A DNA stretch of 64,000 bases from Oceanicoccus sp. KOV_DT_Chl. GTDB lineage: Bacteria; Pseudomonadota; Gammaproteobacteria; Pseudomonadales; Dasaniaceae. This document shows, one piece after another, positions 18,144 through 36,200 of the stretch (within the stretch, counting starts at the first letter, position 1; each line of letters opens with the position of its first letter). The stretch covers positions 310,001-374,000 of the forward strand of contig NZ_FQLF01000002.1 of assembly GCF_900120175.1 (NCBI RefSeq), written 5' to 3'. The translations under genes and the position numbers were made by a program. The notes under the pieces are model-generated. The model saw only the letters and a list, made by a program, of their open reading frames with translations, was not told where the DNA came from and ran no database searches.

Positions 18144-18240
18144 AAAGTTTCGGGAATTAATACGGCTGCCTTCCAGGTTTGCATTGATAACCCAAAGCCC
18201 AAAGAAACCACTCACACTCTGAGCCCAATCTCAGAACTGA

Positions 18241-22589: not shown

Positions 22590-22613
22590 GAGTTCGGGGT
22601 CAGAGTAAAAACT
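22590..22613 (+). repeat. RAYT-associated repeat, family 1, left end of RAYT element
   Basis: GGGGTCAGAGTAAAAACT, inverse of the copy at 23371-23391. The pair encloses the RAYT gene at 22615-23295. Confidence 0.8.
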
Positions 22614-22614
22614 A

Positions 22615-23295
22615 CTAATTCTTCGGGCCGGGCTTTAGTAATCGCTGCCTCCGGCTTCCAAGACTCTCAACTCTATCCTTAAAGTGCTCTGAGCCAAGCG
22701 CCAAACCTCTTTGGGTAGATTGCCTGATATCTGTTATTAATTCACCATCAATCTCAGTTTCGAATAACTGTCTGTAGCAAGACTGCCGCTCGATAGCGAT
22801 CCGTCCCAATCTTAAATACTCAAAATGGGGAGACCACAAACTCATGGCTTTACCAAACGCATTGGCACAATAGCTCGACCAGCGGTAATCGGCAGGATCA
22901 CTAACCATCCCCGCACGCACAGGGTTCAATTCAATATACCGAAGACAAACTAAAAAGTACTTCTCTGTCTCTACTGGACAAGATTTAAATCGTCCCTCAA
23001 AAAGAGTACCCGTCCGTCCATATTCACGATTAAAGTATCGTACATAATGCCGCCCCAAAAACTGCATCATCCGTGAAATAGCATCGTCATTCTTAGGGGT
23101 TGCAAGTAGATGCACATGATTATTCATAAACACCCAACCATGAATAGCAACATCATACTTCTCCGCTCCTTTTGACAACCAATGGGCATAAGCAGCAAGA
23201 TCAATGTCCGATGTGAAGCATACCTGGCGATTGTTACCGCGCTGAATAATGTGTTGAGGTATACCGCCTGGTGTATAACGACGTAGTCTGGCCAT
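22615..23295 (-). CDS. REP-associated tyrosine transposase (RAYT), family 1
   Basis: A 226-residue Y1 HUH transposase of the RAYT (TnpA-REP) group. Features are IIQRGNNR at the N-terminus, the HUH metal motif HVH in MNNHVHLLATP, the helix with the candidate catalytic Tyr (YVRYFNREYGRTGTLFEGRF), and RYIELNPVRAGMV plus YRWSSY. It is bounded by inverted family 1 repeats at 22590-22613 and 23371-23391. It should cleave and join single-stranded REP-like sequences. At least four further copies of the same repeat lie upstream to 18241, consistent with this gene spreading them. Confidence 0.92.
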   Translation of the reverse strand: MARLRRYTPGGIPQHIIQRGNNRQVCFTSDIDLAAYAHWLSKGAEKYDVAIHGWVFMNNHVHLLATPKNDDAISRMMQFLGRHYVRYFNREYGRTGTLFEGRFKSCPVETEKYFLVCLRYIELNPVRAGMVSDPADYRWSSYCANAFGKAMSLWSPHFEYLRLGRIAIERQSCYRQLFETEIDGELITDIRQSTQRGLALGSEHFKDRVESLGSRRQRLLKPGPKN

Positions 23296-23370
23296 CCATT
23301 CATCCTTGAATAATTTTAGGTTTTTAATAATGTGAGGGGGACATTAAAAAACAAATGTAGCTTTATTATA

Positions 23371-23391
23371 GTTTTTACTCTGACCCCGAAC
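23371..23391 (-). repeat. RAYT-associated repeat, family 1, right end of RAYT element
   Basis: GTTTTTACTCTGACCCCGAA, inverse partner of 22590-22613. It lies about 75 bp upstream of the transposase start. Confidence 0.8.
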
Positions 23392-23469: not shown

Positions 23470-24048
23470 TTACTTAAATAAATCATAAGCTATTAAACAT
23501 AAAACCGGTACACAAAGATAAACAGTATACATAAAGCTGGGGTGGCGTATTTTCCATAACAACTTCATCAAAGCCATTTCACTAAGTTTTTCTGCTTCTT
23601 TAAGGCGTGGTAAAACCCATTTTTGTAACTCATCACGATCAAACAAATAGCCAACCTGCGGGCTACCCATCATGGAAATGACAACATTCCCATCAATAAT
23701 CATGCGAGTTGTATATTTAATTTCCGAAGGGTAAAAACGACTTTCATCACCTTTATTATTGCGGAGAATAATATGATCACGACTCACGCCTACACCGATA
23801 TTTTTTATTGACTGGCTAACAGTACGCACAATGAAATAAATCGCTGTAAAAAAAACCAGCATCATTGTGACTATAATCAAGGTGAAACGGTCAAATTCTT
23901 TTATGCCAAACAATATTGATAGTGCCCCTAATACAGCTAGACCTACTATTAAATAACAATAGTAGGTTGTTTTTTTTATGAACGAAGTGTTTTTCGATAC
24001 CCAGAAATCACCTTCACTGGGGGTAAATAGCTTCAGCCTGTTCATCAA
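23470..24048 (-). CDS. Membrane protein of unknown function
   Basis: A 192-residue protein. Two close hydrophobic helices lie near the N-terminus (YYCYLIVGLAVLGALSILFG and FTLIIVTMMLVFFTAIYFI). They are followed by a soluble segment that could be a small PH-like fold (GVSRDHIILRNN, SRFYPSEIKYTTRM) and a C-terminal helix (FMYTVYLCVPVLCLIAYDLF). I do not recognise the family. It follows the gene at 24059 by 10 bp, so the two are probably cotranscribed. A near-identical copy of its last 57 or so codons lies at 28291-28461. Confidence 0.7.
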   Translation of the reverse strand: MMNRLKLFTPSEGDFWVSKNTSFIKKTTYYCYLIVGLAVLGALSILFGIKEFDRFTLIIVTMMLVFFTAIYFIVRTVSQSIKNIGVGVSRDHIILRNNKGDESRFYPSEIKYTTRMIIDGNVVISMMGSPQVGYLFDRDELQKWVLPRLKEAEKLSEMALMKLLWKIRHPSFMYTVYLCVPVLCLIAYDLFK

Positions 24049-25180: not shown

Positions 25181-25511
25181 GGGCCAGAGTCACTGACCCT
25201 CCGCGCCTAACAAGAATTCCTCTCATTTCCTATCGCCCCTTTTACTGGGCACGGCACACCTACCAGTTTTTTCTTCGATTTTCACTTTAAAGCGATCACT
25301 TCCTAATACCCAGGATTTATTTGTAGCCTCCTTGATTGCAGCATCGTCACAAAAACAAGCCTCCCGATTATTACCACGCCGAATCACATACTGAGCACAG
25401 CCCTCCAAATAAAGTCGAGGGAATCGTGCCACCAGAAAATCCTTTCTCCAAAGTAGTAAAATGATATTGAAGACTAACCAGCCTAGGTGTCGATATCAAT
25501 GACTCTGACCC
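25181..25511. mobile_element. Internally deleted RAYT mini-element
   Basis: About 330 bp bounded by imperfect inverted ends GGGCCAGAGTCA (25181-25192) and TGACTCTGACCC (25500-25511). The only coding content is the short RAYT remnant at 25223-25432. It looks like a non-autonomous derivative that keeps both ends of a RAYT element. Confidence 0.6.
25223..25432 (-). pseudogene. RAYT remnant: N-terminus joined to C-terminus
   Basis: A 69-residue frame from a GTG start. The first 27 residues (MARFPRLYLEGCAQYVIRRG, NNREACF) are a RAYT N-terminus. The last 35 (ATNKSWVLGSDRFKVKIEEK, TGR) are a RAYT C-terminus. The catalytic core with the HUH motif and Tyr is missing, so the deletion is internal and in frame. 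It cannot be an active transposase. Confidence 0.7.
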
Positions 25512-26270: not shown

Positions 26271-26515
26271 GCGAGTAGGCTACCCCAACCGCGTATGCCC
26301 TCTGCTGACTTCTGTAATGCGATCACAGCGGATCTCTCCACTGTCACTTTTTTCCAGCAACACACTACAGACCTCCCGGGGTAAGTCACTTAACTTTCAT
26401 CGCGTAGACGCTTGATTTATAAGAAAACATATCCCGATTAGAGCTCCAGGGACAGTTTACTTAATTCTACGGTAGTTCCCGGGCAATTGGGAGTTCCCGG
26501 GCAATTGAGTCAAAA

Positions 26516-27550
26516 AGGGGTCAAGTCTGTTTTATAATAGCCAAACCCTTTTCCACCGCCGACAACTCCCTTTTCAACTCACCCCGCGCCACCCTTCTCT
26601 TAATGTCCGCCACTGCCGGTGACACGCTACCAGAATGGGACAATCCGAAATACACCGCGATAACATTTAATGGCATAGCCCCATAGTGCTGACAACAATA
26701 GATGGCCAGCTTACGCGGAAGATTCGCCGCTTGCCTTCCTGATTGTCGAGTAACAAGGCTGGTTCCCTTGACCTTACAGACCTTGGCCACAACCGAAATA
26801 ATACGATCTGCATCGGGACGCTCTATAAGCATTTGCAGTTTATCCGTATCCAATTGCTGTTGTTGCATGAGCTGAGCCAGTGACTCTTTGAATTCACTCC
26901 CACCTAACAGGCTCGCCAAATTGCCTTTATTGTAAAACTGCAACAACCCTTCATCGTTACCTGCTTCGATATAGGCCTGATACCCTTTATAACGCTGTCG
27001 CTGCCCCAGCATTTGATAGGTTTTTTCCCGTATTAACCACCTAGGTAAGGGTGCTCGATTAATATAAGCCAAATAGCTCGACCAAGGGTAGGTGGATAGC
27101 ACATCAGAAACGGCGCCTTTGACTTCGGCCGGATTGCGATGAATGTAGCGACTGAGCTGCAAAAGGTAATTATCTTCATCCACAATAATAGCTTTGTAAC
27201 GCCCTCGAAACAGGGCGCCATCAGTGTGTTTGAGACGGTTATAGCGCTGGGTGTATACGCCGTTGATATGGCGCATGATGCGATCTAAATTGGCGCGCGG
27301 TGTTTCAATGAGCAAATGATAGTGATTACCCATCAAACAATAAGCATGTATCTGCGCATCGAAACGTTGATGCGCTTCCGCCAATGTCTGCAAAAAAGCC
27401 TGGTAATAAGCTTCACTGTGAAAGATTGCTTGGCGTCCCCGACCACGATTCATTACATGGTAAAAGGCGTGCTCATATTGAAGGCGCTGAGGTCTTGGCA
27501 TTAACGGAGTATAACAAGGGTTTGATCATTATAAAACAGACTTGACCCCT
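26516..27550. mobile_element. RAYT family A element, copy 1 (intact)
   Basis: About 1,035 bp bounded by inverted copies of AGGGGTCAAGTCTGTTTTAT (26516-26535 and 27531-27550). It carries a complete RAYT gene. It is almost identical to 28755-29788; I see only three or four substitutions and one 1-base deletion between them, so the duplication is recent. Confidence 0.85.
26521..27501 (-). CDS. REP-associated tyrosine transposase (RAYT), family A
   Basis: A 326-residue Y1 HUH transposase. The N-terminal HUH domain has YHVMNRGRGRQAIF, the metal motif HYH in LMGNHYHLLIETP, and RLKHTDGALFRGRYKAIIV near the candidate catalytic Tyr. RYIHRNPAEV and YPWSSYLAYI follow. The C-terminal 90 residues form a DnaA-like helix-turn-helix extension (LPRKLAIYCCQHYGAMPLNV, IAVYFGLSHSGSVS), typical of the longer RAYTs. 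All motifs are intact, so this copy is probably the active source of copy 2. Confidence 0.93.
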   Translation of the reverse strand: MPRPQRLQYEHAFYHVMNRGRGRQAIFHSEAYYQAFLQTLAEAHQRFDAQIHAYCLMGNHYHLLIETPRANLDRIMRHINGVYTQRYNRLKHTDGALFRGRYKAIIVDEDNYLLQLSRYIHRNPAEVKGAVSDVLSTYPWSSYLAYINRAPLPRWLIREKTYQMLGQRQRYKGYQAYIEAGNDEGLLQFYNKGNLASLLGGSEFKESLAQLMQQQQLDTDKLQMLIERPDADRIISVVAKVCKVKGTSLVTRQSGRQAANLPRKLAIYCCQHYGAMPLNVIAVYFGLSHSGSVSPAVADIKRRVARGELKRELSAVEKGLAIIKQT

Positions 27551-27691
27551 ATTCCCTTCCCATGTTAGCAGTGCCTGTCCCTTATGAATGTTCTCTAGTC
27601 CACAACTGGTACGGTGGAAGCCACCAATGGAAAGCGCTTTATCCCTTGAAGGCTTGGAAGAATATGAGCCACCTAGCAATGGTGATGCTCG

Positions 27692-27802
27692 TTACGTAAA
27701 CAAGCTTGGTGTTGCATTGGTATATATTGGAAAAATCCGGGGCTGGGTGGCGCTGACGCATTGTGCATAACCCGGCACAACCAATCGTGGCATCCTTGCC
27801 AT
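27692..27802 (-). pseudogene. N-terminal remnant of a RAYT gene (family B)
   Basis: A strong AGGAGG site precedes an ATG at 27802 that opens MARMPRLVVPGYAQ, a standard RAYT N-terminus, after which the frame diverges and stops at 27692. The rest of the gene appears to have been lost when the family A element inserted. Confidence 0.6.
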
Positions 27803-27895
27803 AACGACCTCCTAGTGTTTTTTTCTTTCTATTGTGAAAACTAATACTAGGTTATTAATTAAGTAAACTGTCCCCGGAGTTCTCGGAATTCTCAA

Positions 27896-28222
27896 TCATT
27901 GAGCCAAAACAGGCAGGCCACACTTTTTACATGCCTCTGGCATCGGAAAACAGATAAGAGAAATTTCTTCAATTTTTTCATTACACTTAGGGCATCTAGC
28001 TGTGCACGCATCGTTAAAACGACTAGAAATAATAAGTCCTAGAGGTAACGATATGGTCGCAAAAAAAATCATAGTGGGGAGGTAAAAATTACCTAAAATA
28101 TCTTTCATATCTATAGATATAAATAAGGGTAAAAGCAACAAGCAGCCTATAACCGCCAATAAACTATTGACCCTTCTCGCAGTTTTAGTTCGCTCAAATG
28201 CGACTTCAGACAAGTTATTCAT
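27896..28222 (-). CDS. Small zinc-ribbon membrane protein
   Basis: A 108-residue protein. Two hydrophobic helices (VNSLLAVIGCLLLLPLFISI and PTMIFFATISLPLGLIISS) are followed by a C-terminal four-cysteine zinc ribbon (CPKCNEKIEEISLI ... CKKCGLPVL). I do not recognise the family. It resembles in layout, though not in order, the small protein at 30009-30263, where the ribbon comes first. It sits between two RAYT-derived segments and has no obvious operon partner. Confidence 0.65.
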   Translation of the reverse strand: MNNLSEVAFERTKTARRVNSLLAVIGCLLLLPLFISIDMKDILGNFYLPTMIFFATISLPLGLIISSRFNDACTARCPKCNEKIEEISLICFPMPEACKKCGLPVLAQ

Positions 28223-28290
28223 TAGGGTTGGTATACAGATCTGAAAATAAATACAAGAAGATCATAAATAAAAACCTAACCTCCAACCTC

Positions 28291-28461
28291 TACTTAAGTA
28301 AATCATAAACTATTAAACATAAAGCCGGCACACAAAGATAAACAGTATACATAAAGCTGGGGTGGCGTATTTTCCATAACAACTTCATCAAAGCCATTTC
28401 ACTAAGTTTTTCTGCTTCTTTAAGGCGTGGAAAAACCCATTTTTGCAACTCATCACGATCA
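28291..28461 (-). pseudogene. Duplicated 3' fragment of the membrane protein gene at 23470
   Basis: About 170 bp nearly identical to 23468-23640, covering the last 57 or so codons and the stop. There are only a few substitutions. Homology ends abruptly about 10 bp before the family C RAYT end at 28472, so the copy was probably truncated by or carried with that element. Confidence 0.75.
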
Positions 28462-28475
28462 AGTAACTCAGGGGG

Positions 28476-28763
28476 TCAGGTCTTGCCTTTTGCCATCGTA
28501 ATTATTCTACTAACCCTCGAATAATGCAGACCAAAATATTTTCCTATTTCTTTCATGCTAAAACCACCACTCGCATACGCTTGTACCATCGCATCATTAC
28601 GATTCTGGGCGTGTTCTTGATATTCAGTTAATGTTTTAGGTATTGGTCGTCGCTGCTTTAACGGTATCTCTGATAGTTCTTGCGTATCATCAATATGATT
28701 GAGTATCCGACCCACAAATTCATCACTGCCCAAATACACTTGGTTTTTTAAAAAAGGGGTCAA
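28476..28763 (-). pseudogene. C-terminal fragment of a RAYT gene (family C)
   Basis: A 95-residue frame. The C-terminal half (RRPIPKTLTEYQEHAQNRND, GGFSMKEIGKYFGLHYSRVS, RIITMAKGKT) is the helix-turn-helix tail of long RAYT proteins. The preceding residues (YLGSDEFV) also fit that family. The catalytic domain is absent: the frame begins at the junction with the inserted family A element. It is not a functional transposase. Confidence 0.7.
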
Positions 28764-29788
28764 GTCTGTTTTATAATAGCCAAACCCTTTTCCACCGCCG
28801 ACAACTCCCTTTTCAACTCACCCCGCGCCACCCTTCTCTTAATGTCCGCCACTGCCGGTGACACGCTACCAGAATGGGACAATCCGAAATACACCGCGAT
28901 AACATTTAATGGCATAGCCCCATAGTGCTGACAACAATAGATGGCCAGCTTACGCGGAAGATTCGCCGCTTGCCTTCCTGATTGTCGAGTAACAAGGCTG
29001 GTTCCCTTGACCTTACAGACCTTGGCCACAACCGAAATAATACGATCTGCATCGGACGCTCTATAAGCATTTGCAGTTTATCCGTATCCAATTGCTGTTG
29101 TTGCATGAGCTGAGCCAGTGACTCTTTGAATTCACTCCCACCTAACAGGCTCGCCAAATTGCCTTTATTGTAAAACTGCAACAACCCTTCATCGTTACCT
29201 GCTTCGATATAGGCCTGATACCCTTTATAACGCTGTCGCTGTCCCAGCATTTGATAGGTTTTTTCCCGTATTAACCACCTAGGTAAGGGTGCTCGATTAA
29301 TATAAGCCAAATAGCTCGACCAAGGGTAGGTGGATAGCACATCAGAAACGGCGCCTTTGACTTCGGCCGGATTGCGATGAATGTAGCGACTGAGCTGCAA
29401 AAGGTAATTATCTTCATCCACAATAATAGCTTTGTAACGCCCTCGAAACAGGGCGCCATCGGTGTGTTTGAGACGGTTATAGCGCTGGGTGTATACGCCG
29501 TTGATATGGCGCATGATGCGATCTAAATTGGCGCGCGGTGTTTCAATGAGCAAATGATAGTGATTACCCATCAAACAATAAGCATGTATCTGCGCATCGA
29601 AACGTTGATGCGCTTCCGCCAATGTCTGCAAAAAAGCCTGGTAATAAGCTTCACTGTGAAAGATTGCTTGGCGTCCCCGACCACGATTCATTACATGGTA
29701 AAAGGCGTGCTCATATTGAAGGCGCTGAGGTCTTGGCATTAACGGAGTATAACAAGGGTTTGATCACTATAAAACAGACTTGACCCCT
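28755..29788. mobile_element. RAYT family A element, copy 2
   Basis: Same inverted ends as copy 1 (28755-28774 and 29769-29788). One base shorter because of the deletion in the transposase gene. It is inserted inside the family C element. Confidence 0.85.
28760..29739 (-). pseudogene. RAYT family A transposase, copy 2, one-base frameshift
   Basis: Nearly identical to the gene at 26521-27501. CATCGGGACG in copy 1 is CATCGGACG here (about 29051-29057), a lost G. This separates the catalytic N-terminal part (from 29739, closing in the wrong frame at 28906) from the C-terminal helix-turn-helix (28760-29029). The HUH and Tyr motifs remain on the N-terminal piece. It is inactive if the deletion is real. 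Confidence 0.85.
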
Positions 29789-30008
29789 ATTCCCTTCCCA
29801 GACTTGACCCCTATTCCCTTCCTCATTTGTCACCGACCCCATTTATCTTCGACCCGTTTATCAATGACTCCCCCCTTTTCGACCTATGCGACCTCCATGT
29901 GAATTTCGCAGCTAAGCTTAAGTGTTTGAACAATGTAAGACCTGACCCCGTTGGCTTGTGTTGGTTTGTTCGTTATTGATTCTGTTCACCCTTTAATTAC
30001 AACCTTAC

Positions 30009-30623: not shown

Positions 30624-33299
30624 TCAGCCCCCCACTAATCTTATACCCCCAGCCCCAGTCTCCGGATCCACAATCGTATACCCAGCCCCAGTCCAACCCG
30701 CATAACTAATCGGATTCTGATGCACCGTAGCCACCATTCCATTCTCCACCTGCGCGCGAATTTCATCAACCGTCCCTTGATCAACCGTTAAATCACTTAG
30801 GTACTGTAGGTTATCCTGCGTAAAGGTATAAATCCTTTGGCCTTGTTGACTGGCAATCGCCAACGCCTTCACTGCACTAATCCCTTCAACCGGTTCTTCA
30901 TCCGTAGAAAACAATTGCTCCGGCACCAAATGCTCATACGCCGAATAGGTACTGCCCATCTGCTGATTAAAGTCCCGCCAGTTACCCCAACAATTACTTT
31001 TACATTCAGTGCTGAATTTCATGGAATCCATATCCATCAGTAATCCAGTCATTTCTACATTGGTAACCGTACCCAACAAACCGTTTGTTTTGGCATTGGT
31101 TTGAAAGGTACCGTAACTGGGTTCGCGGTAGTAAACAATATCCGAGCTTTGTGCGGCAAGTCGCGATTGCACGTCGGTAATGGCCATATAGCTCATCACA
31201 CCGGATTGCATTAAATCCCCCACCACTTCGTGTTTGGTGAGGCCGGTAAATTCTTCTGCTTCCAGTTTGGCTTTGGTGGCTTCAAGGCGGGTTTGCAATG
31301 CTTGTAACTGCGCAGGTGATATACCGTGGTAATCCAAGCCAATGGCTTGATACTCGCCGGTGATGATGGGATTAATGGTCGTACTCCAACCACGGCCTGG
31401 CACAAAATAGCCTTTTTCTGTTTGCAGTACCTGCCCAAAACTCATGGCAGCGCTGCTGGCGACGACTTGGCCACTGGCAGTTAACTCACCGACTACATTC
31501 ATTAAACCTGCGGGGATGATATTGGGTAAATCCTCTGCACTTTGTGGGTTGTCGGGTAAGTAATCCAATAAGGCTTGTTCATCTGCGGCTGTGGCGGGGT
31601 TGAATGAGATTGCCAAGGATTGGCCAGCCAGCTCAACGGTAGTCGCAGTATGGCTTAGTAACTCACCACCAAATTGGTCCTGTAGTTTGAAGGTGAACTT
31701 ATAGCGCAAGTGGTCAGGAATTTCGGTGAGCGCCTGACTGACAACGATTTGGTTGTAGGGCAACTGCGTGGGCAATGATACGCTGGTGGTTTCTATAATC
31801 GTTTTACTGCCGATGACGTCGCCTACTGTCGCCTCGGGTTGTTGATTCGTTAAATAATCTTCCAGCGCTTGCCGGTAATCCTCCAGTTCTGTTTCGATAA
31901 AGGCCTGATTCACATTTTGCACCCAGCCTTCGGTTTCATTAACGGTAGCCGTGCTTTGCAAGGTATTGGCAAACGCTTCAGCATCAAAACTAACTTCGCT
32001 TTGTAAATCCATGCCCTCGGTGTATTGGTACTGTTTAAAGCTAGGGTCCACCTCTACCCACTGGCTACCATCCCACAGCTGCACCCAGACGTGCTCCATG
32101 GTCATGAATTTATTTGTTCCATTAACTGATAATAGTGCGCTGGGAATCCCCCCTTGGCCAAGTAGGTTTTGTGCCGCCTCGTACACACGAACACCGCCTA
32201 CCCAGTTCATCACTTCATCTAAAGTGATCCATACATTACCGTACTGGTAGCGCGCGGGAATATTCGCTGCACGCAGCAAGGCAACTAATAAACTGGCTTG
32301 GTCAAAGGCATTACCACGACGGGTTTGCAAAGTGTAATCGGCACCCTGCAATGAACCATAACTGGGAATAAATTCGATGTTGTTATGGACCCAGTTATAA
32401 ATAGCGACTTCATCATTGCTTAAATCATTAGCCAATTGTTGAATGGCAGGGCTAATGGGCGCATCTAAGGTGGCAGTGGTATCTGCGGCAACGGGGTCAC
32501 CGGTAACAGGTGCCACACCCAGCATGCTTTCTAATGCCGCTGCGCTGTTAACCGGTGCGCCACTGACGGCATCCAACGGACCAAAAGGCATGGTTTGGTC
32601 GTAGGGATGTTGGATTGGATTATATAAACGTGCAAGCAATGCAGTAGCGAGTCGCACTTCCTGCTGTAACGCTGGACCTTGCACACGATCAATCCGTTGC
32701 AGCTGATCTTGCAAGGTTGCCATTTCACGCTGGTAGCGTTGCTGCTTTTGATCCAGTACTGTTATGGCTCGCTGTGGTAATTGCTGCTGCGTGTAATATC
32801 GTCGCTGATCAGCAAAGTAATCGCTGGCACCCTCATCGAGATCACTGAAAATTTCACGCTGCTGGCTAATCGCCTTTTTCAGGATAGCCAAGCCCAAATG
32901 TTCATTCGTATTTTCACCTGTTTGCTTCAACGCAATGGCAGTTTTCTGCAAGAGCTGCTGCGTTTCTGCAAGCGCACTATCCATTTCAGAAAAAACAGGA
33001 TAGTCAGGTTTATAACGTAAGTACTCATCAATAGATTTAACCGTGGCATTGACTGCCGGCGAGTAAAACACCACAGCAAAACAACACAGTACAACAATAG
33101 CTGTGGCGCGCATGAATCGGTGCCCTTCACGAAACTGAGTTAACAACGGCTTATTATGATTCAGTGCGTAATCACTATTACTATATACGACGTCCATTTC
33201 GTAATCCTTTTTTTGCGCTATTGTTTGACCCATTGAAACCAAACGCAATGCCATTAATCGAAGACTAAGCGCCGTGAGACTTTTTATTAACGCGCTCAT
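30624..33299 (-). CDS. Transglutaminase-like secreted or membrane protein
   Basis: The start is placed at the ATG ending at 33299: it overlaps the upstream stop as ATGA and has GGAGG eight bases before it. A signal-anchor helix (FMRATAIVVLCCFAVVFYSP) lies after a 60-residue cytoplasmic-type leader. A coiled-coil region follows, then a transglutaminase-core-like domain (DEVAIYNWVHNNIEFIPSYG, RGNAFDQASLLVALLRAANI, MEHVWVQLWDG, WVEVDPS). His and Asp of the triad are present, but the Cys position appears to be Ala (GNAFDQ), so it may bind rather than catalyse. The frame ends at GAGGIRLVGG; the true C-terminus is probably 30272-30589. It is coupled to the Ig-repeat protein. Confidence 0.75.
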   Translation of the reverse strand: MSALIKSLTALSLRLMALRLVSMGQTIAQKKDYEMDVVYSNSDYALNHNKPLLTQFREGHRFMRATAIVVLCCFAVVFYSPAVNATVKSIDEYLRYKPDYPVFSEMDSALAETQQLLQKTAIALKQTGENTNEHLGLAILKKAISQQREIFSDLDEGASDYFADQRRYYTQQQLPQRAITVLDQKQQRYQREMATLQDQLQRIDRVQGPALQQEVRLATALLARLYNPIQHPYDQTMPFGPLDAVSGAPVNSAAALESMLGVAPVTGDPVAADTTATLDAPISPAIQQLANDLSNDEVAIYNWVHNNIEFIPSYGSLQGADYTLQTRRGNAFDQASLLVALLRAANIPARYQYGNVWITLDEVMNWVGGVRVYEAAQNLLGQGGIPSALLSVNGTNKFMTMEHVWVQLWDGSQWVEVDPSFKQYQYTEGMDLQSEVSFDAEAFANTLQSTATVNETEGWVQNVNQAFIETELEDYRQALEDYLTNQQPEATVGDVIGSKTIIETTSVSLPTQLPYNQIVVSQALTEIPDHLRYKFTFKLQDQFGGELLSHTATTVELAGQSLAISFNPATAADEQALLDYLPDNPQSAEDLPNIIPAGLMNVVGELTASGQVVASSAAMSFGQVLQTEKGYFVPGRGWSTTINPIITGEYQAIGLDYHGISPAQLQALQTRLEATKAKLEAEEFTGLTKHEVVGDLMQSGVMSYMAITDVQSRLAAQSSDIVYYREPSYGTFQTNAKTNGLLGTVTNVEMTGLLMDMDSMKFSTECKSNCWGNWRDFNQQMGSTYSAYEHLVPEQLFSTDEEPVEGISAVKALAIASQQGQRIYTFTQDNLQYLSDLTVDQGTVDEIRAQVENGMVATVHQNPISYAGWTGAGYTIVDPETGAGGIRLVGG

Positions 33300-36200
33300 T
33301 GGCATAACCTCCGGTTCCATGGTCCGGGTGCAGTCACTACCAACTGATAAAATTGTTGATCACTATTACCATCACTATCACTGACCTCAATTTCTACCGA
33401 GTGCACACCGATATTTTCTACTGTCGGTGACCAACTCACTAAACCGACATCATCGATCGTCATACTGTCTGGCGCGGTGACGAGCTGATAATTGATAGTG
33501 TCGCCCTGAGGATCAGTCACTGTTAGCTGATAGCTATAACCCTCTTCCGTTTTAGTCGACGTTATCGCATCACTGGTAATGACTGGCGAAAACTCATCTT
33601 CAATCACAAATATTGCAAACTCATATACCGTACTTGAGCCCTGTGCATCACTAATGCGAAGACTAATTAAATGTCTCCCCAATTCAACGGCGGCCGGTTG
33701 CCACTCAATCAAACCGCTATCAGCTAATGTCATTGTGCCCGGCGCGCCTAGCAATTGATAATTCAGGCTGCCCCCCTCAGGATCAAAGGCTTGTATTTGG
33801 TAGCTATACAACTGATCGACAAGAGCGGTTAAGGGCGCATCTGAAATAATAAGCGGCGCTTGATCTACCGTCACCAACACACTGAAATTTTGAATCGTAC
33901 TTAGCTTGCCATCAGTCGCTTCCACGGAAATTGCTTGCACACCTAATTGCTCAGAAGCGGGCACCCAAGTCAGAGCGTTACCGTCTAGCGACACGCCTTC
34001 AGTATTACTGACCAAGCTATAGCAGACAGGGTCATTTTCTAAATCCACTGCGTTGATTAGATACTGATAGACAGACCCAATAATAGCTACATTACTCGGC
34101 TTGGAAGTAAAAACAGGGCCCGTCTCTGCATAAACCGATAGCGAGTAACTCTGCTGCGCATAGCCCCCACGACCATCGAGCACACTAACGACAATCGTCT
34201 TATCGCCCACCTCATCTAAAGAAGACTGCCAACTAATAAGACCGGTTGAACCGATACTCATCGCTGTTGGCGCAGAATCTAATGTATAAGTTAACAGATC
34301 GCCATCTTCGTCTGTCGCTATCAATTGATAGGTATAAAACTGCCCAGCGGATAACTGCCTGCTGGGAGAGCTACTTATTGAGGGCGCTGTGTTTACTGCA
34401 ATTTCAGCAGCCACCGTAATAGTAAAGTTTTGAGCAACTGCGTTAACACCATCGTCGATATTGAGCACAACATTATGATTACCCACTTGTGACAGCGACG
34501 GCACCCATGTAATTAGACCCTCTGAACTAAGTTCCATACCATCTGGCATGATATCTAAAGAATAATTTAACCTATCATCTCTATAATTATGCGCCGTAAC
34601 TTGGTAGTAATAACCCTGACCAAAATAGGCATTTATCGCGGGCGAGCTGGTGACTTGCAAACTGTTACTAGCGTAAACAGTAAGCTCAAAACCCTGGGAA
34701 AACTCAATTCCTTGATTATCTTTAACGGAAAGTAATACAGCATGAACACCGACATCCTCTGCCGTTGGCACCCAAGTGATATGCCCAGTATCCGTAATAT
34801 TCATACCGACTGGTGCTGCAGATAATTCATACCCAATAACTTTGCCAACTGCTACCACCCGGTAGTGATAGAGTTCTGAATCATAGGTGACCGCAGACGG
34901 ACTAGACGTAATTGATAAGGACGGCACTACCTCTATAAAGAAACTCACGGTAGAACTTTCTTCAGAATTAGAAACCTGGACCACAACTTCATGATAACCA
35001 ACACTCAGTTCACCGGGTGCCCAGCTAACGACTCCGACCTCATTAATTATCATACCGTCTGGTGCAGTAGATAGTGAGTACAGCAACGTGTCACCCAGTG
35101 GATTCGTGGCGTCAACACTAATCTCAAAATTTTGATTTACTGCAAGCGCAACAGAATCGATAGCCGACACTAACGGAGAGTTATCGTTATTACTTTGCAG
35201 ATATATATTTACCCCCCAGTTATGAATAGTGACAGCGCCATTGGAGTCAATCATTTCAATCACTAAAGTGCTATAACCCTCTCTTAATTGAACCCATTCA
35301 TAGGTTTCAATAGTCGGCGTCCAAGTAATTCGATAGTTCTCATCGATTTGAAAAGCACCTGGCTCCGTGGAATCACCCTCAGTCAAGATAGTAATTTCAT
35401 CACCATCCGGATCAACCACCTCAAGCTGGTAGACATATTCCTCACCGACAAATGCATCAATAGGCGGCACTGAAACAACCACGGGCTTTTGATTATCAGG
35501 GAGATCTAATACCGTTACCGCTGCTGTTTTTACTACATCCTGACCAGAACCATCGGCTACACTCAGAGTAAATATATGCTGGCCAACATCTGTATCCATC
35601 GTCTGCCAGCGCACTTCTCCTTCCGCATTTACCGTAGCGCCATTAGGCGCACCTATTAACTCGTAAACGTAATTACCATCACCACCAAAAACTTCCGCAT
35701 GATAAATATAAACAGAACCATCATAAATTTTTTCAGGGAAATCATTAGATACTTCCAAATGATCATTATCACCGGCCACCCAAAAATCCTGCGTGGTAAT
35801 AACCCCTAAAGCAGAGCGCGCAAGTAGTTTAAAGTAGTACAGATCGAGAGCTTGGTTACTCGTATCGCATTCAAGTGCCACGCTATTATTGTAATCAATT
35901 TGAATGCGCACATTACCAGTAATTGGGCGCCCAACATCAACCGAATAACTTGATGTACCTGAAAGCCCAGCAACATCAACTTGTCCAATAACTTGATAGG
36001 CGTTATTAACCTCTTCATAAACTCTAACGGCAAAAGCACCTGTCGCTACCAACCCTCTATTACTGAGATCAAATTTCACCACACGTGAATTTTCAACATA
36101 GGCATCCACTATTGCTAAATCAGCCAACCATAAACTGGCCTGTGGCAGCTCATTGGTAACGCCATATTCACCCCAATCATTATAGACACAAGCTTCCCAC

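Follow-up and report, generated by a model that had tools for sequence, protein, structure and literature searches.

A TIRtron present in near-identical copies within remnants of two other TIRtron families in Oceanicoccus sp. KOV_DT_Chl, and repeats at its junctions

The DNA analysed here, a window of 64,000 nt from the gammaproteobacterium Oceanicoccus sp. KOV_DT_Chl (contig NZ_FQLF01000002.1, positions 310,001 to 374,000), contains two near-identical copies of a transposase unit of about 1.03 kb, designated family C, each lying inside the remnant of an element of a different family, host A and host B. The unit is a predicted TIRtron, that is, a RAYT-like Y1 transposase gene (TIRYT) bounded by terminal inverted repeats (TIRs). 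The best overall explanation, and a probable one, is that copies of this TIRtron inserted into decayed TIRtrons of two different families and also at a third site in the genome. That unit C as a whole is mobile in the manner of an insertion sequence is highly probable. Transposases of the RAYT type are generally seen as domesticated genes present in single copy. No report of whole-unit TIRtron mobility or of such junction repeats was found in the passages searched in one open-licence library.

The core of copy 1 occupies positions 26517-27549 (1,033 bp) and that of copy 2 positions 28756-29787 (1,032 bp); these and all other features of the nest given below, namely the hosts, genes, gene fragments and tips, are on the minus strand. 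The matching segments, 26512-27562 and 28751-29800, are 99.62% identical, with 4 differing columns. A preliminary description of the window, made from its letters alone, had reported the same 1,035-bp element inside both hosts with a few base differences, which agrees with these figures apart from the slightly smaller cores. A third full copy, missed in that description, is located at G000:C2:107290-108333 of the same genome, about 228 kb from the window copies; it is 99.71% identical, and all three copies together differ in 6 columns. A chance origin of this similarity is excluded by its length and identity. The similarity of copies 1 and 2 ends no further than about 10 nt from the unit ends, the unit being common to the two sites and the flanks not, which supports the earlier claim that an entire unit was transferred into the remains of two different families. 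A single segmental duplication giving rise to copies 1 and 2, which had been named as the finding that would overturn this claim, is ruled out, since the match stops at the ends and the flanks differ.

The inverted ends of unit C, AGGGGTCAAGTCTGTTTTAT, begin with GGGGTCA and have arms of 38 nt that are 87-89% complementary. Searching the genome for the 20-nt end gave 10 occurrences, 9 of them exact and 1 with a mismatch, and none for the reversed control. An extra 24-nt copy of the left end adjoins copy 2 (29799-29822) and was also overlooked previously, and partial end copies of 163, 59 and 26 nt adjoin copy 3. The TIRYT gene is intact in copy 1 (26521-27501), where it encodes 326 aa with a Y1_Tnp domain and a tail resembling DnaA domain IV; copy 3 likewise encodes 326 aa. 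In copy 2 (28906-29739) a 1-bp deletion shifts the frame, leaving 277 aa without the match to the C-terminal helix-turn-helix (HTH).

Host A (26449-27874) has GGGACAG-type ends: GGGACAGTTTACTTAATT occupies 26449-26466, the complementary end finishes at 27874, and the right end reads GGGGACAG; its arms (26440-26466 and 27857-27883) match at 93%. Host B (28472-29949) is bounded by GGGGTCAGGTCTT from 28472 and the complement ending at 29949, with arms (28472-28489 and 29932-29949) matching at 89%. Each host retains a fragment of its own gene, as had been described. The host A fragment (27692-27802, 36 aa) is N-terminal and matches, at 52% over 29 aa, the N-terminus of the complete gene of a family A relative, L156, whose ends correspond to those of host A and stand about 755 bp apart. 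The host B fragment (28476-28763), the apparent start of which is inside the tip of the insert, is C-terminal and includes the HTH; its 95 aa match related C-termini at 52-59% in five loci and at 38% in a sixth. A family B relative, L046, has both GGGGTCAGGTCTT tips, at 990 and 1922 and thus 933 bp apart. The relatives L156 and L046, with the same ends as the hosts and in L156 a complete gene, show that hosts A and B are best classed as TIRtrons of families other than C, and the doubt whether they are Y1-transposase elements is settled in favour of the earlier claim. Once the insert is subtracted, host A comes to about 394 bp and host B to about 446 bp, so that both hosts are largely deleted as well as interrupted.

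Within its own genome the family B end has a single exact match, in host B itself; the other end of host B matches with 2 mismatches, and there are three further matches with 2 mismatches against one in the control. In a genome of the same genus (G001), family A tips are paired about 51-54 nt apart, resembling REPINs, and host A contains a 56-nt stretch that is 80% similar to other DNA of a same-genus genome.

Relatives of unit C were compared using the best 80 of 519 related places found in genome contigs, and many of them carry AGGGGTCA tips about 45-50 nt upstream of the start codon. The metagenome-assembled genome NORP103 (Thiotrichaceae) holds three full copies of a related element, 99.5-99.7% identical, and a 242-nt end fragment. 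Four pairs of elements from different genomes (L066/L075, L074/L107, L078/L088 and L105/L110) are 81-93% identical over 1,017-1,055 bp, with alignments that stop no further than about 15 nt from the element ends. For L062, both of the two other genomes of its genus contain the element without its flanks. These comparisons show similar elements of distant genomes at unrelated sites. Because end-bounded copies also occur in other genomes, the family very probably moves as a unit.

Several observations weigh against this reading. The three copies of unit C are found in just two places. Each place has a copy of a transglutaminase-like gene nearby, and since these two gene copies are 98% identical over 1,583 bp, recombination between the places may have helped. 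The flanks of copies 1 and 3 also have in common the motif of a further family, E, and GAGTCAAAAAGGGGTC; the family E REP-like tip GGGACAGGCACTGCTAA (27565-27581) lies beyond the left tip of copy 1, at a distance of about 14 nt, and its motif recurs beside copy 3. Among the relatives, L100/L101 is a 5-kb segmental duplication, the L076/L077 match extends beyond the element, two of the three copies in NORP103 have about 1 kb of flank in common, and a related TIRYT-like gene without a recognised right tip (L045, in the genus of G226) is syntenic in 15 of 15 genomes, so that some relatives are settled. Finally, a clean empty site was not found in any of the searched sets. The region of the window had any match in 12 of 57 related genomes and an uninterrupted site in none. 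In three genomes of its genus the L062 element was found and its flanks were not; in 15 genomes the entire L045 locus was kept together with its gene, hence there was no empty site; and of 18 genomes compared with L046, a single one gave a match, to the right flank only and starting some 50 nt beyond the element. Plasmids (24 records) and phages (1 record) gave only hits below 60% identity, none covering 80% of the protein. Long same-strand reading frames on both sides of an element were present at 4 of the 48 listed loci, so gene interruption was of no help in finding sites.

Homologous recombination or gene conversion between the places at 107 kb and 337 kb of C2 could have carried the element, real transposition being rare or old. 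Both loci have a near-copy of the transglutaminase-like gene, as well as family D tips (C2:95-96 kb and 328-333 kb) and family E tips. However, the sequence between gene and element is unlike at the two loci and the matches stop at the element ends; copies 1 and 2, only 2.2 kb apart, are in different hosts without common flanks, and end-bounded similar elements are found between unrelated genomes. Exchange of this kind is considered improbable as the explanation.

The unit C protein matches Y1_Tnp with 54.8 bits (cut-off 23) and contains H60-Y61-H62 together with Y119, N123 and P124, i.e. the HUH motif, the catalytic tyrosine and the Y---NP motif, which are invariant in 34 aligned rows. It scores below the cut-off for Bac_DnaA_C (28.2 bits, cut-off 31.5; E 2e-6), and falls outside both the RAYT/REPtron profile (NCBIfam REP_Tyr_transpos, 62.9 bits, cut-off 80) and the IS200/IS605 profile (NCBIfam transpos_IS200, 22.8 bits, cut-off 55). 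The best PDB match of its AlphaFold2 model (mean pLDDT 81.9, pTM 0.59) is the E. coli RAYT 4er8; for the tail of the model, a match to domain IV of DnaA (1j1v) was obtained, with TMt 0.84 and a Foldseek E of 0.017. In the protein tree, the window copy is in a supported group of 5 rows from Gammaproteobacteria and one Nitrospirota bin, although bins may contain stray contigs.

TIRYTs and TIRtrons have been in print since 2013 (Di Nocera et al. 2013, PMC3733652). They comprise a RAYT-like Y1 transposase with long inverted repeats in place of repetitive extragenic palindromes (REPs), GGGGWSAS-type tips and a C-terminal HTH, which is Bac_DnaA_C in group 2.1.2 (PMC3733652; PMC6006769). The gene of unit C is likewise bounded by inverted repeats, the 38-nt arms, and a C-terminal HTH of the Bac_DnaA_C, HTH_23 or HTH_28 type is indicated by the sub-cut-off profile match plus the model match to DnaA domain IV. 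Its tip GGGGTCAA fits 7 of the 8 positions of GGGGWSAS, the last base deviating from a consensus that is published for some TIRs only; families B and D (GGGGTCAG) and the right end of host A fit it fully. The ends start with AGGGGTCA and have no GTAG head, unlike the REPs that flank RAYTs. Because inverted ends replace GTAG-REPs and the tail is DnaA-like, as in PMC3733652 and PMC6006769, unit C is assigned, from sequence and model, to the TIRtrons (tips GGGGTCA or GGGGACA, DnaA-like HTH), TnpA Y1 class 2, subclass 2.1, and not to the GTAG-REP RAYTs. All three families had been described as RAYTs; they are Y1-transposase units, but their tips and DnaA-like HTH place them with TIRYT/TIRtrons.

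Elements of the IS200/IS605 family have a Y1 HUH transposase, are multi-copy, move as a unit and lack terminal inverted repeats. Unit C resembles them in the first three respects, but has terminal inverted repeats, a much longer protein and the DnaA-like tail. With TIRtrons of subclass 2.1 it shares the Y1 transposase, inverted repeats and HTH, its tips coming close to the GGGGWSAS type, and differs in its three near-identical copies, nested in other TIRtrons and accompanied by junction repeats; class 2 TnpA Y1 is described as having low copy number and low conservation between copies, with subclass 2.3 excepted for number (PMC3733652; Quentin et al. 2018, PMC6006769). Likeness to RAYT/REPtrons and REPINs is seen in the HUH Y1 fold, in family D with one gene and many paired tips, and in the repetition of REPIN clusters with their flanks (PMC3116915). 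In contrast to unit C, without a GTAG head and multi-copy, RAYTs showed neither multiple copies nor altered locations in an earlier study (Nunvar 2010, PMC2817692), and three near-identical copies in one genome do not fit a single-copy immobile gene. The earlier generalisation that such genes are single-copy holds for RAYTs and most class 2 proteins (PMC2817692; PMC6006769), but not for family C or its relative in NORP103, with three copies each.

The junction repeats are new here and provide the most useful lead of the analysis. Many tips are bordered on the outside by head-to-tail repeats, each made up of 8-20 nt of host flank together with the tip; beside copy 2 (29775-29822), the flank GGAAGGGAAT plus AGGGGTCAAGTCTG forms two 24-nt copies. 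Their excess at element ends was shown by three tests. A copy of 8 nt of flank plus GGGTCA within 90 nt, with at most 1 mismatch and near-copies included, was present at 21 of 114 testable ends compared with 39 of 23,243 random points. Of 223 GGGTCA sites in other parts of the loci, 9 matched too, and by their appearance they belong to the ends of further elements of this kind. After five redundant loci had been dropped, 22 of 107 ends had an 8-mer that ended at the tip and recurred within 40 nt, against 36 of 10,700 shuffled flanks, and the rate fell with distance from the tip (8.2% at 1-10 nt, 5.3% at 11-20, 1.4% at 21-40, 0.9-1.0% at 41-160 and 0.2-0.3% beyond 160). In the third test, 30 of 112 ends had an exact repeat spanning the junction and measuring 10 nt or more, versus 36 of 11,033 random points. 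With the window copies included and near-copies counted, 36 of 126 ends have such repeats.

For 17 of these 30 ends, the nearest repeat stops 5-8 nt into the tip (3 at 5 nt, 6 at 6 nt, 4 at 7 nt and 4 at 8 nt). A possible origin, somewhat short of an even chance, is nicking followed by re-copying. Cleavage by an HUH enzyme leaves the enzyme on the 5' phosphate and a 3'-OH from which synthesis can be primed; the cleavage site of TnpAREP is C|T, and for the Marinomonas enzyme CA as well (PMC8266576). On single-stranded DNA, the TIRYT would make its nick within GGGGTCA, at the CA or directly beside it, and stay on the 5' end of the element, leaving the flank as flank-GGGGTC(A)-3'-OH, an end normally used for strand transfer. 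Should this end re-anneal upstream through a few matching bases and be extended, head-to-tail repeats of flank plus tip would arise, and longer extension would give truncated end copies. Neither the 10 nt beyond the left tip that unit C copies share (GGAAGGGAAT), unexplained by a cut exactly at GGGGTCA, nor the 13 of 30 repeats that stop elsewhere follow from this nick model; the other stops are at 0 (2), 1 (1), 2 (2), 3 (1), 9 (2), 19 (2) and 28, 35 and 60 nt (1 each), and 82 of 112 ends have no repeat at this stringency.

Plain replication slippage at an end blocked by a hairpin or protein, in which the transposase cuts nothing, is in keeping with the repeats being short and head to tail, with 0-6 nt of sequence matching where they join in many cases. 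As a published precedent, REPIN clusters form tandem repeats that include flanks, for which Bertels and Rainey (2011, PMC3116915) suggested a second mechanism without naming it, and the junction repeats extend this flank repetition to single ends of full elements. Against slippage stands the concentration of stops 5-8 nt into the tip, beside the CA dinucleotide cut by one TnpAREP, although a bound protein could likewise stall synthesis there. A possibly conserved hairpin in the ends (e.g. GTCAA-ATC-TTGAC) was seen by eye in some families, not in family C. Slippage is regarded as a serious though doubtful alternative. The wider proposal that TIRYT cutting at CA and repeated re-copying build junction repeats, truncated ends and, in relatives, tandem REP/REPIN clusters, and let the element incorporate neighbouring host DNA into its ends, is somewhat unlikely; if true, repeat breakpoints would reveal the cleavage sites of many uncharacterised Y1 enzymes from sequence alone. 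If the repeats record the cut site, the cutting reaction of a large enzyme group would become directly testable, and a breakpoint-level model for tandem repeat clusters would be at hand.

The preliminary description also suggested that REP-like ends had targeted the insertions. A preference for sites next to pre-existing TIR or REP-like tips would explain both nesting and arrays, since other TIRtrons surround copies 1 and 2 and copy 3 has a family E tip next to it, and other-type tips are denser at 120-500 nt from elements (0.445 per kb) than further out (0.124-0.164 per kb). However, this signal, confined to less than 500 nt, is weak and confounded by the element's own arrays: several of the near tips derive from its own ends or arrays, the reversed-motif control gives 0.16-0.25 per kb, and the repeat units hold site-unique flank, which is not expected from pre-existing arrays. 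With no clean empty site found in the sets searched above, the suggestion is not supported, and targeting is judged decidedly improbable.

Family D has one gene between tips near 22592 and 23391, and of its 15 exact tips in the genome 8 are in 4 close inverted pairs, resembling REPINs. For family C the genome contains three complete copies, without any short pairs outside the arrays found at the loci of the family itself. The presence of mobile family C beside the REPIN-like, single-gene family D in one genome allows a side-by-side comparison of life styles.

Other features were observed around these elements. The family D TIRtron (22592-23391, GGGGTCAGAGTAAAAACTA tips) has solo or paired tips nearby at 18240, 20257 and 20696. 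At G000:C2:1099131-1099166 two family E tips face each other in inverted orientation, their starts 19 nt apart, in an arrangement resembling a REP hairpin. An open reading frame at 25223-25432 has a RAYT-like start (MARFPRLYLEGCAQYVIRRGNNREACF), matches N-termini of other Y1 genes at 39-50% and seems to be internally deleted. The 129 bp directly outside host A (26294-26422) are a further repeat, with 76% matches at five places in one other genome of the same order (G034). A 172-bp gene piece is repeated at 23471-23642 and 28291-28462 with 96.5% identity, ending 10 bp before the host B tip, and possibly moved along with the neighbouring element. The large protein with a transglutaminase-like core is encoded at 30624-33320; the copy of the 3' 1.58 kb of its gene beside copy 3 (98%) is at L009 7317-8898, and the small genes downstream differ between the two gene copies.

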